DNA of 64,000 nt from Niastella vici (GTDB lineage Bacteria; Bacteroidota; Bacteroidia; Chitinophagales; Chitinophagaceae): positions 62,001 through 126,000 of the forward strand of contig NZ_LVYD01000001.1 in NCBI RefSeq assembly GCF_002077945.1. Direction: 5' to 3'. How positions within the stretch are numbered: the stretch's first letter is position 1; each line of letters begins with the position of its first letter. A program made the position numbers and the translations under genes. The notes under the pieces are model-generated. The model was not told where the DNA came from. It did not search any database and was given only the letters and a program-made list of their open reading frames with translations. Shown here in pieces: positions 10,335-18,504 of the stretch.

Positions 10335-10354
10335 TTGCCTAAGAAATTAGGCAA
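10335..10354. promoter_or_regulatory. BlaI-type operator dyad 2
   Basis: TTGCCTAA (10335-10342) and TTAGGCAA (10347-10354) are exact inverted arms around GAAA. The arms repeat the TGCCTAA core of dyad 1. It ends 10 bases before the BlaI start, where a bound dimer would block transcription of the repressor/peptidase operon and perhaps of the divergent hydrolase. Confidence 0.7.
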
Positions 10355-10364
10355 AACGAGAATC

Positions 10365-10733
10365 ATGAAAAAACTCACTGCAGCTGAAGAGCAGATCATG
10401 CAAACACTATGGAGTTTGGGCAAAGGTGCTTTTATGAAAGATATTCTGGAACACCTGGCAGCAACCAAACCTCATTACAATACGGTGGGCACTTTGCTGA
10501 AGATACTGGTTGAAAAGAAATTTGTAGGTATTAAGAACCCCAACCGCAACAACTTCTATTACCCCCTTATCACCAAAGAAGAATATTCTGCCAGTGGTAT
10601 AAAGGCCATTACAGAAAATTATTTTCAGGGCTCGTACACCAAAGTGGTTTCCTTTCTGGTAGATAAAAAAGAAATGTCGATCGAAGACCTGGAATTTTTA
10701 TTGAGCCAACTTAAAAATAAAGGCAATGAATAG
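10365..10733 (+). CDS. BlaI/MecI/CopY family transcriptional repressor
   Basis: This 122-residue winged-helix protein begins MKKLTAAEEQIMQTLWSLGK, with a recognition helix around HYNTVGTLLKILVEKKF and a wing at GIKNPNRNNFYYPLI. The C-terminal helices (about residues 80-118) form the dimer interface. The ATG at 10365 is preferred over an upstream in-frame TTG at 10335 because that TTG falls inside an operator arm. The next gene (M56 peptidase) overlaps by 8 bases, the usual layout in which the membrane peptidase triggers cleavage of the repressor. It should repress its own operon through the two dyads just upstream. Confidence 0.9.
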   Translation: MKKLTAAEEQIMQTLWSLGKGAFMKDILEHLAATKPHYNTVGTLLKILVEKKFVGIKNPNRNNFYYPLITKEEYSASGIKAITENYFQGSYTKVVSFLVDKKEMSIEDLEFLLSQLKNKGNE

Positions 10734-12078
10734 CCATACCTTATTACTATATGTACTGAAATCAATTTTCATTTCTTGTATTTTTCTGGGCTATTACCTG
10801 GTAGCCTTACGCAACAAAAGCTTTCATTCGTATAATAGATTTTATTTGTTGCTCAGCATGGCGGGCAGCCTGCTCATTCCGCTTTTCAACTTCAGCTGGT
10901 TCACGATCGAGAAGAAAGATATACCTGTCGCTTCTATACAACTGAATTTTATTGCAACGCCACTCTCTAATCATAATACAACGGCTTTTCCCTGGTTGGA
11001 TATTGTCTTTTATCTGGCTATTGGTATAAGCCTTTTCCTGATCACTTTTTTTGCCATGAACGTTTTTAAAGTGTATCAACTGAAAAGAAGATCGGCTATT
11101 CTGAAAATGGATGGCATCGATTTCATTTATACCAACCTGGAGCATGCACCTTTTTCATTTTTAAATAACCTGTTCTGGAAGGAATCTATTTCAATGGATG
11201 AGGAATACGGGAAAAAGATCTTCAAACATGAGCTCACCCATATACAGCAGAAGCATACGCTGGATATCATTTTTTGTCAGGTCATCAATGCCGTTTTCTG
11301 GATGAACCCGTTCAACTGGCTTATTCAAAAAGAACTGAAGGCCATCCATGAATTTATAGCAGACAAAGAAGCTGTTGGCAACAACAATGTGGAAGATTTT
11401 GTGAAGCTGCTTTTACAGGCCCATTACGGAAAGCATTTTTTATCTCCTACACACGCATTCTATTATTCATCTATTAAACGTCGCTTAATTATGTTAACAA
11501 CACCAAACAAAACAACCTGGGGCCCGTTGCGGAAGCTGTTGGTTCTTCCGCTCACCCTGGTAGCAGTTGGCGTTTTATCTGTTTCAATGATTGAAAGGAA
11601 AGCCAATGCTATTGTTGCGCCTATGGTTGCGCCTGTTATCCTTACTCAACAACCTGATCTTTCACCGCCGGTGCAGGAAGCAGCCGTATCAACTACTGTG
11701 AAACAACCGAAGGTTTTCAAACCCATTCCTGCCCAAAAGCCTGCCACTAATAGCGATACCTGTACGCCCGCAAAATCAAAAGCAAACTCACTGACAGCAG
11801 AAATTAATGTTCACGATAAAAATGAGGTCATTACCGCAAGGGCCGAGAAAGTAATGTTGAACCTGGCAGGAAAATCGGATAGCACATTAAAGGCATCACT
11901 TCCCCCGGCGGTATATTACATCGATAATCAACTGGCTACTTCAGATGAAGTCATTAAGCTTAAACCCGAACAAATAAGCAGGATCAATGTTTGGAAAGGC
12001 AATGATGCCATCAAAAAATTCGGTGCTACTATTGGCGCCAATGGTGTAATAGAAATCTTCACAAAAGTGATCCCATAA
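10726..12078 (+). CDS. BlaR1-like M56 family membrane metallopeptidase with plug-like tail
   Basis: This 450-residue protein has four hydrophobic segments: about residues 8-28, 38-56, 91-113 and, after the peptidase domain, about 270-286. The zinc site H168-E-L-T-H172 is followed by E209 in HEFIADKE, typical of M56 peptidases. Unlike BlaR1 it has no penicillin-binding sensor domain. The region beyond the last membrane segment is a Pro/Thr/Lys-rich linker, then a segment with VYYIDNQLATSDEVIKLKPE and GATIGANGVIEIFTK (about 392-448), resembling the plug region of TonB receptors. It is translationally coupled to the BlaI-like repressor and probably inactivates it on an envelope signal. The signal is unknown. 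Confidence 0.88.
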   Translation: MNSHTLLLYVLKSIFISCIFLGYYLVALRNKSFHSYNRFYLLLSMAGSLLIPLFNFSWFTIEKKDIPVASIQLNFIATPLSNHNTTAFPWLDIVFYLAIGISLFLITFFAMNVFKVYQLKRRSAILKMDGIDFIYTNLEHAPFSFLNNLFWKESISMDEEYGKKIFKHELTHIQQKHTLDIIFCQVINAVFWMNPFNWLIQKELKAIHEFIADKEAVGNNNVEDFVKLLLQAHYGKHFLSPTHAFYYSSIKRRLIMLTTPNKTTWGPLRKLLVLPLTLVAVGVLSVSMIERKANAIVAPMVAPVILTQQPDLSPPVQEAAVSTTVKQPKVFKPIPAQKPATNSDTCTPAKSKANSLTAEINVHDKNEVITARAEKVMLNLAGKSDSTLKASLPPAVYYIDNQLATSDEVIKLKPEQISRINVWKGNDAIKKFGATIGANGVIEIFTKVIP

Positions 12079-12188: not shown

Positions 12189-13568
12189 ATGGGTTTGCGA
12201 AAAAAGATTTTCCGTTTTGTATCTCTGGTGCTATTGCTGTTACTGGCATATGGCATCTGGTTTGCGTGGCGGGCCTTTCCCATTATCAGCGGTTTTGGCG
12301 CCAAGAATATGGCCTCCGCCATTTACCTGCAACATCGAAAACCGGCAAGTGTGTTACATGAAGAGCTGGCCTTCTTCCCTGTTTCTCTGGGAACATACAC
12401 TCTCAATACGGAAGATTCTTCTGTTACCGGATCAGTATGGGGATTTGCCCGGCGCAAAGCTATTTACAGAAAAGGGATCGGCTGTACGCTGGTGAATGAT
12501 CTTACCGAAGAAGCTATCAGGGAACAACATTTCAATTTACCACTGGTTCCCAAACAAAACCCCGATACCATTGCCTGGCCGTATGGCGATAAATTATCAG
12601 GCAGCATTCCTTCAACCATCGATACGGTTGTACTAAAGAACGCTATTGACCATGCCATGCAGGCGCCATCGAAAAATGGGGGACCGGCGTATACCCGCGC
12701 TTTTCTGGTGGTATATGATGGTAACATCGTTGGCGAACAGTATGCACCCGGGTTCAACAAGCATTCGGTGATGATCGGCTGGTCGATAAGTAAAAGTTTA
12801 ACCGCTGCCGTTATAGGCGTGCTCACGAAAGCAGGGCAGTTGAACCCTGATGCACCGGCACCCGTACCCGAATGGAAAAATACCTCGAAAGAAAAGATCA
12901 CGCTTAAACAGTTGCTGCAGCAAACTTCGGGACTGGATTATACAGAAGATTACAGCAGCCCCAGCGAGGCAACCAATATGTTGTTCATGCGGGGCGATAT
13001 GGGCGCTTTTACTGCCATGCTTCCGTTGAAATTTAAACCGGGCACTTTCTTTAATTACTCCAGTGGCAATGCCAATATTCTCAGCCGCATCATCCGTCAT
13101 TCGGTGGGCGATTCGGGCTATGCCGCATTCCCTTACCAGGCATTGTTCCATAAAATAAATATGTATTCTCTTTTGCTTGAACCTGATGCATCAGGCACCT
13201 ATATTGGTTCTTCCTATAGCTATGCTACTGCACGCGATTTTGCGCGTTTTGGTTTGCTGTATTATAATAATGGGATGTGGAACGGGGAACAGCTGCTGCC
13301 TGAAAACTGGGTAAAGGAAACGATAAAGCCGGCGGCGGCCAACCAATTGCAACGCTATGGTTTTCAGTTCTGGCTGAATGGCCTTGATAAAAAAGATCCC
13401 GGCAAACGCTGGTTCCCAGATGTGCCGGCCGATATGTATTTTGCAGATGGCTTTGGCGGACAGAACATTTTCATAATTCCCTCCAAAAAACTCATCGTTA
13501 TACGCCTGGGGGTGCATACTGTTGACGAAAACCAGTACCTTAAAGAAGTGATCCAGGCAATCCGCTAA
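12189..13568 (+). CDS. membrane-anchored beta-lactamase-fold serine hydrolase (class C family)
   Basis: With the ATG at 12189 the protein has 459 residues and a positively charged start followed by one membrane anchor or signal (about residues 9-26). The catalytic domain contains S199-I-S-K202 (SxxK), Y290-S-S-G-N (second motif) and a QQTSGLDY block. These mark the beta-lactamase/penicillin-binding/esterase superfamily. Longer frames to a TTG at 12129 overlap the T run of the preceding terminator and are not credible; an ATG at 12177 is a possible alternative. Beta-lactamase activity is not implied: many relatives are esterases or peptidases. Its place next to a BlaI/M56 pair suggests, but does not show, a cell-wall or beta-lactam link. 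Confidence 0.85.
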   Translation: MGLRKKIFRFVSLVLLLLLAYGIWFAWRAFPIISGFGAKNMASAIYLQHRKPASVLHEELAFFPVSLGTYTLNTEDSSVTGSVWGFARRKAIYRKGIGCTLVNDLTEEAIREQHFNLPLVPKQNPDTIAWPYGDKLSGSIPSTIDTVVLKNAIDHAMQAPSKNGGPAYTRAFLVVYDGNIVGEQYAPGFNKHSVMIGWSISKSLTAAVIGVLTKAGQLNPDAPAPVPEWKNTSKEKITLKQLLQQTSGLDYTEDYSSPSEATNMLFMRGDMGAFTAMLPLKFKPGTFFNYSSGNANILSRIIRHSVGDSGYAAFPYQALFHKINMYSLLLEPDASGTYIGSSYSYATARDFARFGLLYYNNGMWNGEQLLPENWVKETIKPAAANQLQRYGFQFWLNGLDKKDPGKRWFPDVPADMYFADGFGGQNIFIIPSKKLIVIRLGVHTVDENQYLKEVIQAIR

Positions 13569-13569
13569 T

Positions 13570-13598
13570 TGTTTGAATTTTGCAAGTTTTTGTTTGAA
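13570..13598 (+). promoter_or_regulatory. AraC-type direct-repeat operator (regulator gene copy)
   Basis: TGTTTGAA occurs at 13570-13577 and again at 13591-13598, a 21-bp direct repeat, as expected for an AraC-family dimer on one face of the helix. The bases between are also largely shared with the copy at 14705-14733. It ends 95 bases before the AraC gene start. Confidence 0.7.
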
Positions 13599-13628
13599 TC
13601 CTATAAAGTCCGGAGGGCCAGGCTGTCG

Positions 13629-13636
13629 TAATTTTA
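13629..13636 (+). promoter_or_regulatory. -7 box of the AraC gene promoter
   Basis: TAATTTTA matches the Bacteroidota -7 consensus TAnnTTTG at 5 of the 6 fixed positions. It begins 38 bases after the start of the second TGTTTGAA half-site, exactly the distance seen at the SDR promoter. No good -33 element is visible, consistent with activator dependence. Confidence 0.55.
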
Positions 13637-13693
13637 TAAGGTGAAGCGAAAAACGTGGGTTTGAAAAATATACAATTGTCTTAAATTTACCAT

Positions 13694-14593
13694 ATGCCCA
13701 AGACAGAAACACTGGAAGATTTTTACCGCCATAAAATGAACTGGTTGCCCGAAAATCTTAAAAAAGATATCGGCCATTTCAATGTGTTTAAAGTGGAGGA
13801 TTGTGTAGGCCCGGGCAAAACACCAGTAGCTTATACCCGGCGCGATTACTACAAGATATCCCTGATGCAGGGCGATTATATATATCACTATGCCGATAAA
13901 AGCATTGAGGTCTCTGGTTCTACCCTCATCTTTTTTAGCCCGAATGTGCCTTACACCTTTGAATCGTTAACCGATGATCCCAAAGGGTTCTTTTGCATAT
14001 TCAGGGAAGAGTTCTTTACAGAAAAGATCCGCGGTGGTATTAAAGATCTGCCCATGTTCATTTCGGGTAATAAACCCAGTTATGCCCTCAACAAAACGCA
14101 GGACAAATTTGTAAGCCAGATATTTGAAAAAATGGTTGATGAAATTGGATCTGATTATGTTTATAAATATGATCTTATCCGCAACTACATTATGGAGATG
14201 ATCCATTATGCGTTGAAAATGCAGCCCACCGAAAACCTGTATCAGCATACAGATGCCAATGCCCGCATCACTGCTGTTTTTACTGAATTGCTCGAGCGGC
14301 AATTCCCTATTGAATCGCCCACGCAACGGTTTACCTTACGTTCGGCCAGGGATTTTGCCGAACAATTATCGGTACATGTGAACCACCTTAACCGCGCCAT
14401 CCGCATCACCACCGGCAAAACCACTACCGATCATATCTTTGACCGGCTTATCAGTGAAGCAAAGGCCTTGCTGAAACATACCAACTGGAACATTTCCGAG
14501 ATCGGTTATTGCCTGGGCTTTGAAGAACCGGCGCATTTCAATCATTTCTTTAAGAAGCAGACCAGCATGACGCCATCAGCATTCAGGAATTAA
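13694..14593 (+). CDS. AraC family transcriptional regulator
   Basis: This 299-residue protein has an N-terminal cupin-like sensing domain (about residues 25-150, with YYKISLMQGDYIYHYADKS and LIFFSPNVPYTFE). The C-terminal AraC DNA-binding domain has two helix-turn-helix units (about 200-299, ending ISEIGYCLGFEEPAHFNHFF). Bacteroidota relatives usually activate a nearby oxidoreductase gene in response to a small molecule. Here an SDR gene follows 234 bases downstream on the same strand. The same operator and -7 box lie before both genes, so autoregulation plus control of the SDR gene is likely. The ligand is unknown. Confidence 0.92.
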   Translation: MPKTETLEDFYRHKMNWLPENLKKDIGHFNVFKVEDCVGPGKTPVAYTRRDYYKISLMQGDYIYHYADKSIEVSGSTLIFFSPNVPYTFESLTDDPKGFFCIFREEFFTEKIRGGIKDLPMFISGNKPSYALNKTQDKFVSQIFEKMVDEIGSDYVYKYDLIRNYIMEMIHYALKMQPTENLYQHTDANARITAVFTELLERQFPIESPTQRFTLRSARDFAEQLSVHVNHLNRAIRITTGKTTTDHIFDRLISEAKALLKHTNWNISEIGYCLGFEEPAHFNHFFKKQTSMTPSAFRN

Positions 14594-14617
14594 AGTTGTT
14601 ATAAATAAATATTTGAC

Positions 14618-14647
14618 AAATGCCTTCCACTACATAGGAGGCATTTT
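14618..14647 (+). terminator. terminator of the AraC gene
   Basis: AAATGCCT (14618-14625) pairs with AGGCATTT (14639-14646), with a further TCC/GGA pairing inside, followed by a short T-rich tract. It is 25 bases past the AraC stop, showing that the SDR gene is transcribed from its own promoter. Confidence 0.7.
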
Positions 14648-14704
14648 CATTCACTCCTTATTCTATTCCTGCAAAATTCAAATAACCTAACCCACACCAA
14701 CACT

Positions 14705-14733
14705 TGTTTGAATTATACAACTATCTGTTTGAA
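14705..14733 (+). promoter_or_regulatory. AraC-type direct-repeat operator (SDR gene copy)
   Basis: TGTTTGAA at 14705-14712 and 14726-14733 again sits at a 21-bp period, with intervening bases similar to the 13570-13598 copy (both have TTGTTTGAATT followed by a CAA). It ends 94 bases before the SDR start. The matching copy before the AraC gene makes chance occurrence unlikely. Confidence 0.75.
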
Positions 14734-14763
14734 AGGCATAATAATGGGCGGGTTGCGTCAATC

Positions 14764-14771
14764 TATCTTTG
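14764..14771 (+). promoter_or_regulatory. -7 box of the SDR promoter
   Basis: TATCTTTG fits the Bacteroidota -7 consensus TAnnTTTG exactly. It starts 38 bases after the second operator half-site start, as in the AraC promoter. The expected -33 position does not carry a TTTG. Confidence 0.65.
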
Positions 14772-14827
14772 TGTCATCAGTTCATGAACGACCAATAACT
14801 TACAACAATCAAATAAAAAAAATAAAG

Positions 14828-15667
14828 ATGAAAAACAAGATATGGTTTGTAACCGGCGCCAGCAAAGGATTGGGACTGGCCCTTGTTAAAAAATTAATTC
14901 AGGAAGGTTATCGCGTTGCCGCTACTTCGCGTAACGTAAAAGAATTGCAACAGGCGGTAGGCGCCGGCCGCGAGGTATTTCTTCCCCTGGCGGTTGATCT
15001 TAAAAATGAAAGCAGTGTTGAAAAAGGAATAAAAGAAACCGTTGCTCATTTTGGATCTATAGACGTAGTGGTGAACAATGCCGGGTACGGCCTTACAGGA
15101 AGCCTGGAAGAACTCTCTGATGAAGAAGTACGTCAAAATTTCGACATCAACGTTTTTGGGGTGCTTAATGTGATCAGAAAAGCATTGCCCTACATGCGCA
15201 AACAGCAATCAGGTCATTTCTTCAATATTGCATCTATTGGCGGGTTCACCGGATCATTCCCTGGCTTTGGCAGTTATACCGCTACCAAATTTGCCATGCA
15301 TGGTTTCTCCGAATCACTGGCAGCAGAAGTAAAACCTTTTGGAATTACTGTTTCTATTGTATCGCCCGGGTATTTCAGAACAGAATTTCTGGATGCCTCA
15401 CTGGGTACGCCCAAAAATGAGATCGCTGATTACAAACTGGTAAGGGAGATACAAACCTTCCATCAAAATGATATGAATCATAACCAGAGTGGCAACCCGG
15501 AAAAAGCTGCCGAAGTTATGATTGCCATTGCCGAACAAAAACAACCAGCGCTGCATGTATTCCTTGGCAAGGATGCGTATCAATTAGCAGAGGTTAAAAT
15601 AAAAGCGGTTCAACAGGATATGGCAACAGTAAAAGAACTCGCCACATCAACTGATTATGCACAGTAA
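14828..15667 (+). CDS. short-chain dehydrogenase/reductase (SDR)
   Basis: Starting at the ATG at 14828, the protein has 279 residues and opens directly on the Rossmann fold. The cofactor motif is T9-G-A-S-K-G-L-G16, NNAG is at 83-86, and the catalytic residues are Ser136 (IASIGG) with Y150-x-x-x-K154 (YTATK). It is a classical cytoplasmic NAD(P)-dependent oxidoreductase acting on a carbonyl or alcohol; the substrate is not predictable. The longer frame from 14708 would add about 40 residues of leader lying over the operator and -7 box, so it is rejected. Control by the upstream AraC regulator is strongly suggested by the shared operator. Confidence 0.92.
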   Translation: MKNKIWFVTGASKGLGLALVKKLIQEGYRVAATSRNVKELQQAVGAGREVFLPLAVDLKNESSVEKGIKETVAHFGSIDVVVNNAGYGLTGSLEELSDEEVRQNFDINVFGVLNVIRKALPYMRKQQSGHFFNIASIGGFTGSFPGFGSYTATKFAMHGFSESLAAEVKPFGITVSIVSPGYFRTEFLDASLGTPKNEIADYKLVREIQTFHQNDMNHNQSGNPEKAAEVMIAIAEQKQPALHVFLGKDAYQLAEVKIKAVQQDMATVKELATSTDYAQ

Positions 15668-15732: not shown

Positions 15733-18504
15733 TTACTGTATCAATAGGGTGTGCGTCAGTTTTTTATTTCCATCACTCCATACCAGTTTATATACACCGG
15801 CATGTAATTCACCTACCTGCACGGTTGTTTGTGTAGCGTTACTGGCCACAACCATTTTTCTTACTATGCGGCCCGAAATATCGATCAACTGCAAGCTGGT
15901 GCGGTGATCAGTAGCCGGTTGTTGCCAAACCACATAATGGCTTGCCGGGTTAGGGTACATCCTGAATGCTTTGGCTGTGGTCAATGTAGTATTGTTATTA
16001 ATTCCTGCCCGGGTATTCACGAACAATGTGTCAGTTATGGTGCTGTCACCAACAAACGTAAAGCCGGCTTTGCAAGCGGAGCCTGTAGGTGCAAATACGC
16101 ATACTGCACCGGTTCCGCCAGTATCAACTCTGGCCTTGATAACAGTGTCTGAATAATGCCATATGCTATCGGCCGGTATTCCACCAAATTGCACCTGATT
16201 AACTCCGGTAAGATGTTTACCAAAGATGGTCACTACGGTTCCTTTTTGGCCGAAGGTGGGCGTAAAGTTGGTTATTACGGGAACCGTTGTTGTATCAGGT
16301 ATACTTGTACTGTCTTTGATAAATGTAAAGCCAGCTTTTGAAGCGGTACCCAAAGGCGTGGTCACTGATACGTTACCAGTGGCGCCTGTATCTACGATCG
16401 CTATTATTAGCGTATCGTTCTTAAACGTGATGCTATCGGCTGGTATACCACCAAAACTTACTGCATTTGCGTTTGTAAATTTGGAACCCAGAATGAACAC
16501 CTTCGTACCCTTGCGACCGCTTGTTGGCGTAAAGGACGTAATTACCGGTGCTGCAGTGGTATCAGGAATGGTATCCTTTATAAACGTGAAACCGGATTTT
16601 GTTGCTGTACCATAAGGCGTGGTCACCGATACGTTACCGGTGGCGCCTGTATCTACGATCGCTATTATTAGCGTATCGTTCTTAAACGTGATGCTATCGG
16701 CTGGCACGCCACCAAAACTTACTGCATTTGCGTTTGTAAATTTGGAACCCAGAATGAACACCTTCGTACCCTTGCTGCCGCTTGTTGGCGTAAAGGATGT
16801 AATTACCGGTGCTGCTGTAGTATCAGGAATGGTATCCCTGATAAAGGTAAAGCCAGGTTTTGTTGCTGTACCATAAGGCGTGGTCACTGATACGTTACCA
16901 GTGGCGCCTGTATCTACTATTGCCCTGATTGCGGTATCAGTCACAAACACGATACTATCAGCCAGCACACCACCAAAACTCACGGCAGTGGCGCCAGTGA
17001 AATGGGAACCAAAAATGGTTACCCCGGTGCCTTTATGTGCACTTGTTGGCGTAAAGCTGGTAATCACTGGTACAGGACCAGTTTGGGTATTTCTGAAAAT
17101 GGAAACTTTGCTATAACTATTGGTAGCTGTTATATCGGGTTTGCCATCGTTGTTCAGGTCACCGATAGCAACCCCTGTAGGACCAGCGCCCAATGAAAAA
17201 TCGTACCGGTTGTTGAGCAGGATACTATCGCCTGAGCTGGCGTTCTGCAATAAAGTAAGCACATAAATTGAATCGGAAACCACGGCCACATCGGCTTTAC
17301 CATCCCCGTTCAGATCGCCAATGCTAATACCCCTTGACTGTGGGCCGGTAGTGAAATCTTTTCTAACATCAAGCGAAATGCTGCCGGCAGTACTTATATT
17401 CCTGTAAACAGATAAAAAGTGAGAGCCATAATGTGAAAAAACAATATCGGGCTTACCGTCGCCATTCAGATCGGCAATGGCAATATTGCCGGGGTAGCTG
17501 CCCGCAGTATAATTTGTTTTACTTAATGAGATACTTCCGGGAGAACTGAGATTTTTCCATACTGAAATAGTGCCTAAAAAGTTAGCGGTCACTACCTCGG
17601 GTTTTCCATCATTATCAAGATCGCCAATAGCCACTTCATCGGCACGGTCGAACGTACTGAAATCTACTTTTGCCGCAAATGTGACGGCGAACCCAGTGGT
17701 AGTGTTCCTAAAAACGGAGATCAGGCCGCTATTGCTGGAAGTTGTAACCAGGTCGGGTTTACCGTCCCCATCCACATCGGCGATCGCAACGCCTACCGAA
17801 TTTGATCCACACACGTAGGTGGTGGTATCAAATCGTATAGTATCATTTATAGATTTATTCGTATATACCGTTACGGTATTGGAACCAAAGCTGGTTACCG
17901 CTGCATCCAGCCTTCCATCACCATTCAGATCGCCGGTAGCGATACCAAAAGGTTGAGAACCTTGCGGAATATTTCTATACAACACCAATTTAACAGGTCC
18001 GCCGGGAGTGCCATTGTTTCTGTAAACAGAAACAACATTGGAGCTCTGATTAGTTACCATCAGATCGGCCCGGCCATCACGGTTAAAATCAGCAATGGCA
18101 ATATTCCTTGGATTGCCCAAACCAGTAAGATCGGCCTGGCGTGTAAATGCGGTTGAATCGAACGGCGTGTGGCCATAGGCAAAAGTTACAGTGAACGCCA
18201 ACCGCGAATAGGCTGTGAGCCGGTTCGATGTTACCGTAATGGGCGCATATGTGGCGCCTGCCGGTACCGTAACCGTGAGGGATGTGGCTGAAACGGATTG
18301 CAGTGTTGCCCGCACTGCACCAAAATAAACAATGTTGCTATCGGACAAGGTATTAAACCCTGTACCGGTGATGGTCACCGATGTTCCAACAGGCCCCGAA
18401 GTGGGGCTGAAAGAATTAATGACCGGTTGAGCCAATACTGCATGGCTAAAGAATAGTAAAATAATTCCTACACTTCTTTTCAGTGCGAGGTAAACATTAC
18501 TCAT
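15733..18504 (-). CDS. T9SS-secreted VCBS/FG-GAP and IPT/TIG repeat surface protein
   Basis: This 923-residue protein has a signal peptide (IILLFFSHAVLAQ, cleavage near residue 25) and one IPT/TIG domain (about 27-105, SFSPTSGPVGTSVTITG). Six or seven FG-GAP/VCBS-like units follow, with motifs such as IAIADFNRDGRADL, IGDLNGDGKADV and IGDLNNDGKPDI (about 120-470), as expected for a calcium-binding beta propeller. Four more IPT-type domains (about 475-830) follow. The end is a type IX sorting domain beginning near FRMYPNPASHYV (about 845-923), which directs export through the outer membrane. A cell-surface adhesin or glycan-binding role is plausible but not shown. Three of the IPT units are almost identical at DNA level. 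Confidence 0.88.
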   Translation of the reverse strand: MSNVYLALKRSVGIILLFFSHAVLAQPVINSFSPTSGPVGTSVTITGTGFNTLSDSNIVYFGAVRATLQSVSATSLTVTVPAGATYAPITVTSNRLTAYSRLAFTVTFAYGHTPFDSTAFTRQADLTGLGNPRNIAIADFNRDGRADLMVTNQSSNVVSVYRNNGTPGGPVKLVLYRNIPQGSQPFGIATGDLNGDGRLDAAVTSFGSNTVTVYTNKSINDTIRFDTTTYVCGSNSVGVAIADVDGDGKPDLVTTSSNSGLISVFRNTTTGFAVTFAAKVDFSTFDRADEVAIGDLDNDGKPEVVTANFLGTISVWKNLSSPGSISLSKTNYTAGSYPGNIAIADLNGDGKPDIVFSHYGSHFLSVYRNISTAGSISLDVRKDFTTGPQSRGISIGDLNGDGKADVAVVSDSIYVLTLLQNASSGDSILLNNRYDFSLGAGPTGVAIGDLNNDGKPDITATNSYSKVSIFRNTQTGPVPVITSFTPTSAHKGTGVTIFGSHFTGATAVSFGGVLADSIVFVTDTAIRAIVDTGATGNVSVTTPYGTATKPGFTFIRDTIPDTTAAPVITSFTPTSGSKGTKVFILGSKFTNANAVSFGGVPADSITFKNDTLIIAIVDTGATGNVSVTTPYGTATKSGFTFIKDTIPDTTAAPVITSFTPTSGRKGTKVFILGSKFTNANAVSFGGIPADSITFKNDTLIIAIVDTGATGNVSVTTPLGTASKAGFTFIKDSTSIPDTTTVPVITNFTPTFGQKGTVVTIFGKHLTGVNQVQFGGIPADSIWHYSDTVIKARVDTGGTGAVCVFAPTGSACKAGFTFVGDSTITDTLFVNTRAGINNNTTLTTAKAFRMYPNPASHYVVWQQPATDHRTSLQLIDISGRIVRKMVVASNATQTTVQVGELHAGVYKLVWSDGNKKLTHTLLIQ
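16353..16960. repeat. 261-bp in-frame direct repeats (IPT units)
   Basis: Blocks beginning GTCACTGATA or GTCACCGATA recur at 16361, 16622 and 16883, a period of exactly 261 bp (87 codons). The first two copies are nearly identical over most of the unit and the third is diverging. The repeat encodes one IPT/TIG domain each. Such identity indicates recent duplication or gene conversion and allows copy-number change. Confidence 0.85.

Follow-up and report, generated by a model that had tools for sequence, protein, structure and literature searches.

Two copies of an AraC/XylS-type operator-promoter unit were found in the window (the whole stretch of 64,000 nucleotides from Niastella vici that was analysed), one preceding an araC gene and one preceding the neighbouring gene of an SDR family oxidoreductase. 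Judged from sequence comparison, this is a real and well conserved regulatory module of a known kind, in which a one-component activator of the AraC/XylS type probably controls both its own gene and the SDR gene via tandem half-sites. Comparison of genomes established the operator, the distance that separates it from the -7 box and its association with one clade of AraC proteins. In the mechanism that we propose, an AraC dimer would occupy the two tandem 16-bp half-sites, which lie 21 bp apart, and the promoter-proximal half-site would reach into the place of the -33 element, so that RNA polymerase would use only the TAnnTTTG -7 box and would need the activator. The activator would turn on both the araC and the SDR promoter; binding, activation and positive self-regulation are what we infer from this arrangement (Table 1).

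Table 1. Features of the araC-SDR locus, with positions in the window
Feature	Position	Strand	Evidence
araC operator made of two direct 16-bp half-sites (13570-13585 and 13591-13606) with a 21-bp period	13570..13606	+	sequence; 10/10 genus genomes
-7 box of the araC promoter, TAATTTTA	13629..13636	+	invariant in 10/10 genus genomes
AraC/XylS-type regulator, 299 aa	13694..14593	+	Pfam HTH_18 9.2e-17, HTH_AraC 7.1e-11; predicted fold
Third half-site, inverted, upstream of the SDR operator (CTGCAAAATTCAAATA on the + strand)	14669..14684	-	14/16 matches
SDR operator, two direct 16-bp half-sites (14705-14720 and 14726-14741)	14705..14741	+	sequence; 10/10 genus genomes
-7 box of the SDR promoter, TATCTTTG	14764..14771	+	38 bases from the start of the second half-site, equal to the araC distance
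Palindrome GTTCATGAAC in the predicted SDR leader, contains a short upstream ATG	14780..14789		exact in 9/10 genus genomes
SDR family oxidoreductase, 279 aa, presumed output gene	14828..15667	+	Pfam adh_short 1.3e-50

The preliminary description had placed two copies of TGTTTGAA-N13-TGTTTGAA at 13570/13591 and 14705/14726, and -7 boxes at 13629 and 14764, each 38 bases from the start of the second half-site; all of these coordinates proved to be exact. The copies are the only two exact pairs in the window, one for araC and one for the SDR gene, and at up to 3 mismatches 6 pair matches were present against 1.99 expected. The half-site itself covers 16 bp and not 8 (best form TGTTTGAATTTNGYAA, with a 21-bp period), and the 37-bp operator has the consensus TGTTTGAATTTNGYAA-N5-NGTTTGAANNNNRYAA. 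According to PMC9723704 the Bacteroidota -7 box is positioned at -12 to -5, and with the boxes taken in this way the second half-site spans approximately -50 to -35. Transcription would start at about 13641 for araC and at about 14776 for the SDR gene. The distances of 95 bases (araC, ATG at 13694) and 94 bases (SDR gene, ATG at 14828) from operator to start codon were also as described, but not as a fixed feature, and we rejected their near equality as a rule: the SDR distance ranges from 91 to 102 bases within the genus, and among the best 80 of 588 loci of the wider set introduced below the distances run from 16 to 119 bases for the SDR gene and from 40 to 131 for araC. A generic sigma-70 promoter scan found 4 sites where shuffled sequence gave 5.9, a result that one would expect in this phylum.

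The araC and SDR genes are arranged in tandem. The C-terminal domain of the regulator carries two helix-turn-helix motifs (Pfam HTH_18 with 61.6 bits and HTH_AraC with 42.4 bits), and the predicted model has helices at 218-298 with a TMt of 0.80 to MarA, in line with a C-terminal domain of the AraC/XylS type. The N-terminal part, where members of the AraC/XylS family have a cupin-like domain for ligand and dimer contacts and where Pfam gave no match, is predicted to form beta-strands (29-131) followed by three helices up to residue 201, and in this model, with a pTM of only 0.55, the TMt was 0.69-0.71 to the RhaR domain and 0.52-0.57 to the AraC domain. Full-length AraC-family chains rank first by E-value against the regulator model, yet with TM values of 0.28-0.33. 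The nearest NCBIfam model of the regulator is HpaA (69 bits, far under the cut-off of 274.65) and that of the SDR protein is the PRK06180 subfamily (294.7 bits, slightly under the cut-off of 298). The closest named AraC relatives among the matches listed (best 80 of 588) belong to Longitalea (93% identical) and Niastella (91%). The surroundings of the locus include a gene for a serine beta-lactamase-fold protein (12192-13568), of which the stop codon lies one base 5' of the araC operator, and directly upstream of that gene a small BlaI/MecI-like regulator (recognised by eye) followed by an M56 (BlaR1-type) peptidase (10335-12078). On the minus strand, at 15733-18504, a large secreted-type protein is encoded, which carries a Por secretion tail besides its FG-GAP and similar IPT/TIG repeats.

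Conservation in relatives that keep the AraC-SDR pair was complete, as the preliminary description led one to expect: all ten genomes of the genus set (that of the window included) retain the pair with the operator in front of both genes, and an SDR gene (76-100% identical) lies behind all ten SDR operators. In an ungapped comparison of these ten genomes (mean majority identity), the two half-sites scored 0.99 and 0.94 at araC and 0.96 and 0.94 at the SDR gene, and the -7 boxes 1.0 and 0.93, respectively. The 22-bp spacers are poorly conserved (0.66 at araC, 0.64 at the SDR gene), and identity in the flanks was 0.54 and 0.61 over the 20 bases upstream and 0.58 and 0.76 downstream. A scan of the ten genomes with both gaps left free gave 51 matches, against 7 for a reversed-pattern control. 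Out of 961 combinations allowed, a half-site gap of 7 together with a -7 gap of 21-23 accounted for at least 42 of the 51 (one match was unplaced), among them those of two AraC paralogues and of an aldo-keto reductase gene. Related genomes also gave 20 AraC matches of lower identity (41-72%); at 13 of these a site could be recognised by eye, and none was found at the other seven (L065, L067, L069, L070, L072, L074 and L078). Near the distant AraC paralogues of L065 and L067 we noted a TGTTTGCA pair at a 21-bp period, with no -7 box at the usual place, which is possibly a variant operator.

For the wider set we used a profile of nine AraC sequences and took the best 80 of 588 confirmed loci, in named genomes, which according to a count of titles fall in 18 named Bacteroidota genera. 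A locus titled Thalassovita (L200) carries a Bacteroidota-type module; Thalassovita is an alphaproteobacterium, and the source is probably a mislabelled metagenome assembly. Allowing 2 mismatches in the 20 fixed positions, the operator was found at 78 of the best 80 of 588 loci and at 0 of 400 randomised loci, a test that is not wholly independent because the pattern was written after related loci, including those of other genera, had been seen, and L122 and L123, two of the 80, come from the genus that served to define it. This comparative evidence supports the earlier claim of an AraC-type operator. The match had at most one mismatch in 67 and was perfect in 45 of the best 80 of 588 loci; at 2 mismatches no operator was found in L186 and L193. 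The operator precedes an SDR gene in 67 of these best 80 of 588 loci, in agreement with the proposal that the SDR gene is the main output, and in the other 13 no SDR was called downstream of it (calls being BLAST matches to the window SDR at 1e-10, so that distant SDRs count). A total of 90 operator sites was obtained from the best 80 of 588 loci, with 68 before an SDR gene, 11 before an araC gene, four before another gene and seven without a gene called in range. The proposed self-activation was only partly borne out. It stands for the lineage of the window, as predicted autoregulation with the operator before araC in all ten genus genomes; in the wider set this arrangement was seen in only 11 of the best 80 of 588 loci.

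The consensus of 61 SDR promoters from the best 80 of 588 loci reads TGTTTGAATTTNGYAAT-NATCN-GTTTGAAT-NNN-GTAAT, followed after 21 bases by TAANTTTG. When half-site gaps of 0-14 and -7 gaps of 14-30 were counted over the best 80 of 588 loci, the peak fell at the same place as in the genus scan, with 81 matches for the combination (7, 22) and 53 for (7, 21), and the remaining combinations averaged 2.3; the lesser peaks are nearly all the same sites out of register (41/42, 36/37, 36/36, 29/32 and 23/24). Among 149 genomes of the class, the exact operator occurred in four, all belonging to the ten with the AraC clade (at 1e-60), and in none of the 139 without it. With the own genome left out it occurred in 3 of 148, all among the nine with the clade (P ~1.6e-4, ignoring relatedness; two of these three genomes are of one genus). 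The exact pattern is incomplete, because six of the ten genomes with the AraC clade gave no exact site. Apart from those of the own genome there are five exact sites, in three genomes of other families, and they follow the end of an AraC match at a distance of 5-204 bp. Binding of the operator by AraC is a prediction, and the source genome encodes many AraC-like proteins (44 matches at 1e-5), so one may ask whether the repeat is bound by a different regulator, with the window AraC only a passenger. We regard this as very unlikely in view of the co-occurrence of operator and AraC clade across the 149 genomes, the exact sites that adjoin the end of an AraC gene in three genomes of other families and the operator at 78 of the best 80 of 588 AraC loci; direct repeats of 15-16-bp sites have moreover been described for AraC-type proteins (PMC5481539, PMC3878776).

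In the source genome (10.06 Mb), pairs of TGTTTGAA with a spacing of 0-30 gave 8 matches, against 2 in a reversed-pattern control. The spacing was 13 in three of the eight, and each of these three has a -7-like box at +38. When 2 mismatches were allowed and nothing else was required, 61 matches were found in the genome against 13 in the reversed-pattern control. Of 11 inexact sites that we inspected, four lie within genes and seven are intergenic, and the 8-bp motif alone is not specific because only one of the 11, the aldo-keto reductase site, was clearly an operator. The pair had been put forward as a ready motif for the regulon; given the excess of chance matches at 2 mismatches, we abandoned it for that purpose. 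The same 61 occurrences of a short 8-mer pair could be taken to mean that the repeats are chance products of A/T-rich intergenic DNA, a reading to which we assign a negligible probability considering the conservation, geometry and co-occurrence results. Adding a second box (AA) per half-site and the -7 box to the pattern left four sites in the genome at up to 3 mismatches and no control match, namely those of araC, the SDR gene, a site on contig C95 and the aldo-keto reductase gene on contig C47. The search motif ending in TAnnTTTG, as first proposed, needs to be changed, as it would miss the araC promoter itself (TAATTTTA). A further candidate operator was noted at G000:C68:73743-73771, with GACCTTTG at +38, a gene 94 bases after the start of the site and a poor second half-site.

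The aldo-keto reductase operator is present in eight of the ten genus genomes, with the gene downstream in all eight (Pfam was run on the own copy only); G008, one of the two genomes that lack it, is no more than 61% complete. The second half-site of this operator is poorer (approximately 10-11/16), and the genome has AraC paralogues with similar operators, which may bind distant sites instead. Control by the window AraC rather than by a paralogue is likely. The third exact TGTTTGAA pair, on contig C95, is located upstream of genes for a [2Fe-2S] protein and a molybdopterin-binding oxidoreductase. We saw this site nowhere but in the own genome; the one comparable case, in G006, precedes another [2Fe-2S] protein. 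We consider the molybdenum oxidoreductase operon a candidate extra target in the own genome. As the likely targets would be an SDR, an aldo-keto reductase and a molybdenum-dependent oxidoreductase, carbonyl or aldehyde compounds might be the signal, which is a weaker suggestion than the targets themselves. The palindrome GTTCATGAAC in the SDR leader was found elsewhere, among the best 80 of 588 loci, only in L122 and L123, two of the ten genus genomes, and a search of the own genome for ATCAGTTCATGAACGA returned the SDR leader as the only exact site. The upstream ATG reads MNDQ-stop in the window and is in frame with the SDR gene in L086. The palindrome may be the site of a second regulator.

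The operator often shares bases with the regulator gene. In 47 of the best 80 of 588 loci (L128 included) the araC stop codon falls within the TTTGA of the first half-site, at one fixed offset, and two more operators in this set begin directly after the araC stop. The ending is GTT TGA in 45 of the 49 overlapping or adjoining loci (best 80 of 588), so that the last residue is Val in most. In the genus, the SDR operator lies away from the araC end and araC has its own operator. An AraC paralogue that shares 35-38% identity with the window AraC and is accompanied by an MFS transporter gene has a variant operator of the same geometry, with the same overlap of the stop codon, at seven genus loci (own included, G000:C13:219131-219195; Pfam was run on the own transporter).

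Class II activators of the AraC/XylS family contact the polymerase in such a way that the protein replaces the upstream promoter element, and at araBAD and Pm the operator overlaps the -35 region. The tandem direct-repeat operator found here, with its period of ~21 bp next to or over the -35/-33 region, conforms to this pattern. It had been noted that no -33 element is evident, and the comparison agrees: in 68 SDR promoters of the best 80 of 588 loci no TTG ended 16-23 bases before the -7 box (a TTG was seen at 15 bases in two, and 21 counts fell at 24-28). In this phylum the -33 TTTG is described as required for full activity and not as essential (PMC2483708). With the second half-site reaching the -33 position and no TTG, the promoter should be weak without the activator.

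In nine of the ten genus genomes (L055 being the one without), an inverted half-site with at least 12/16 matches lies 35-36 bp before the SDR operator; the chance of this is ~3.5e-4 per genome by composition, the genomes being related. No inverted half-site was found at the ten genus araC promoters, and none was seen at -35/-36 of the aldo-keto reductase or C95 sites, although 11/16 positions match at -40 in L202 and 12/16 at +24 in L204. In the nine genomes that have it, conservation of the inverted block was 0.84 against 0.53 and 0.69 in the flanks, a comparison that favours the block because the rows were registered on the best match among four offsets. In other genera, 15 of 68 SDR promoters (best 80 of 588 loci) show an inverted match at -42. 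We did not count it as support, because an operator that overlaps the stop places the araC codons for FKKQT (identified by eye) at this position.

Repression of the own gene is known among autoregulated AraC proteins, and an inverted half-site such as that of the SDR promoter could help to form a repressing state, so that the same operator might be mainly a repressor site, at which the unliganded AraC dimer blocks and the ligand releases the SDR and araC genes. This is unlikely, since without a -33-like TTG (68 SDR promoters, best 80 of 588 loci) the promoter should be weak in the first place, and since the distance between operator and -7 box varies by no more than 1-2 bp, which is what one would expect if the polymerase is contacted. 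Keeping activation of both promoters as the preferred reading, the observations on stop codon and inverted half-site might be joined, tentatively and with considerable doubt about the whole, as follows. The AraC module would occur across many Bacteroidota genera with the operator often in the regulator stop codon (GTT TGA inside TGTTTGAA), the last codons and the DNA target evolving as one sequence. In the lineage of the window, where the operator lies away from the stop, a second copy before araC would close a feedback loop. The dimer would there be able to pair tandem half-sites ('on') or, through the inverted third half-site of the SDR promoter, inverted ones ('off'), like AraC at araBAD, which switches between pairings in two states.

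The module shares with AraC/XylS activators at araBAD and Pm the direct-repeat half-sites with a 5' and a 3' box and the dimer (here predicted), and differs from them in the box sequences, the Bacteroidota -7 box and an operator that often lies in the regulator's stop codon. XylS is described as binding two 15-bp direct repeats, with boxes A (TGCA) and B (GGTA) 6 bp apart (PMC5481539). For the HTCS regulators of Bacteroides, direct-repeat operators were predicted at an average distance of 21 bp, including some 16-bp sites with a 5-bp spacer (PMC3878776), and the window operator, with 16-bp direct repeats at 21 bp, is similar. Unlike the HTCS, which have sensor, kinase and receiver in one chain, the window protein has in its 299 aa only an AraC-type DNA-binding domain that is found by Pfam, and the targets of HTCS are polysaccharide loci, whereas those of the window module would be oxidoreductases. 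In the aldehyde response regulon of the YqhC type in E. coli, inducible by glyoxal, furfural or similar compounds, the AraC activator acts on a reductase gene and an aldo-keto reductase gene. The operators found here before the SDR and aldo-keto reductase genes might point to a comparable set of targets, control being predicted, but YqhC and yqhD-dkgA are in divergent gene order and araC and the SDR gene of the window in tandem. To our knowledge, one-component AraC operators seem to be little described in Bacteroidota. RhaR of Bacteroides is a known AraC-type case (PMC3878776). Our literature searches found no description of the operator or the AraC clade; one of them, which mainly matched unrelated papers, counts for little as evidence of absence.

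The fixed operator-promoter geometry, which extends from Niastella to Flavobacterium and Hymenobacter, provides a usable pattern for regulon searches and a straightforward way to examine how promoters that lack a -33 element are activated in these bacteria. A specialist would find two parts unusual, the overlap with the stop codon and the inverted third half-site, and the operator in the stop codon is a simple case of coding and regulatory DNA sharing bases.
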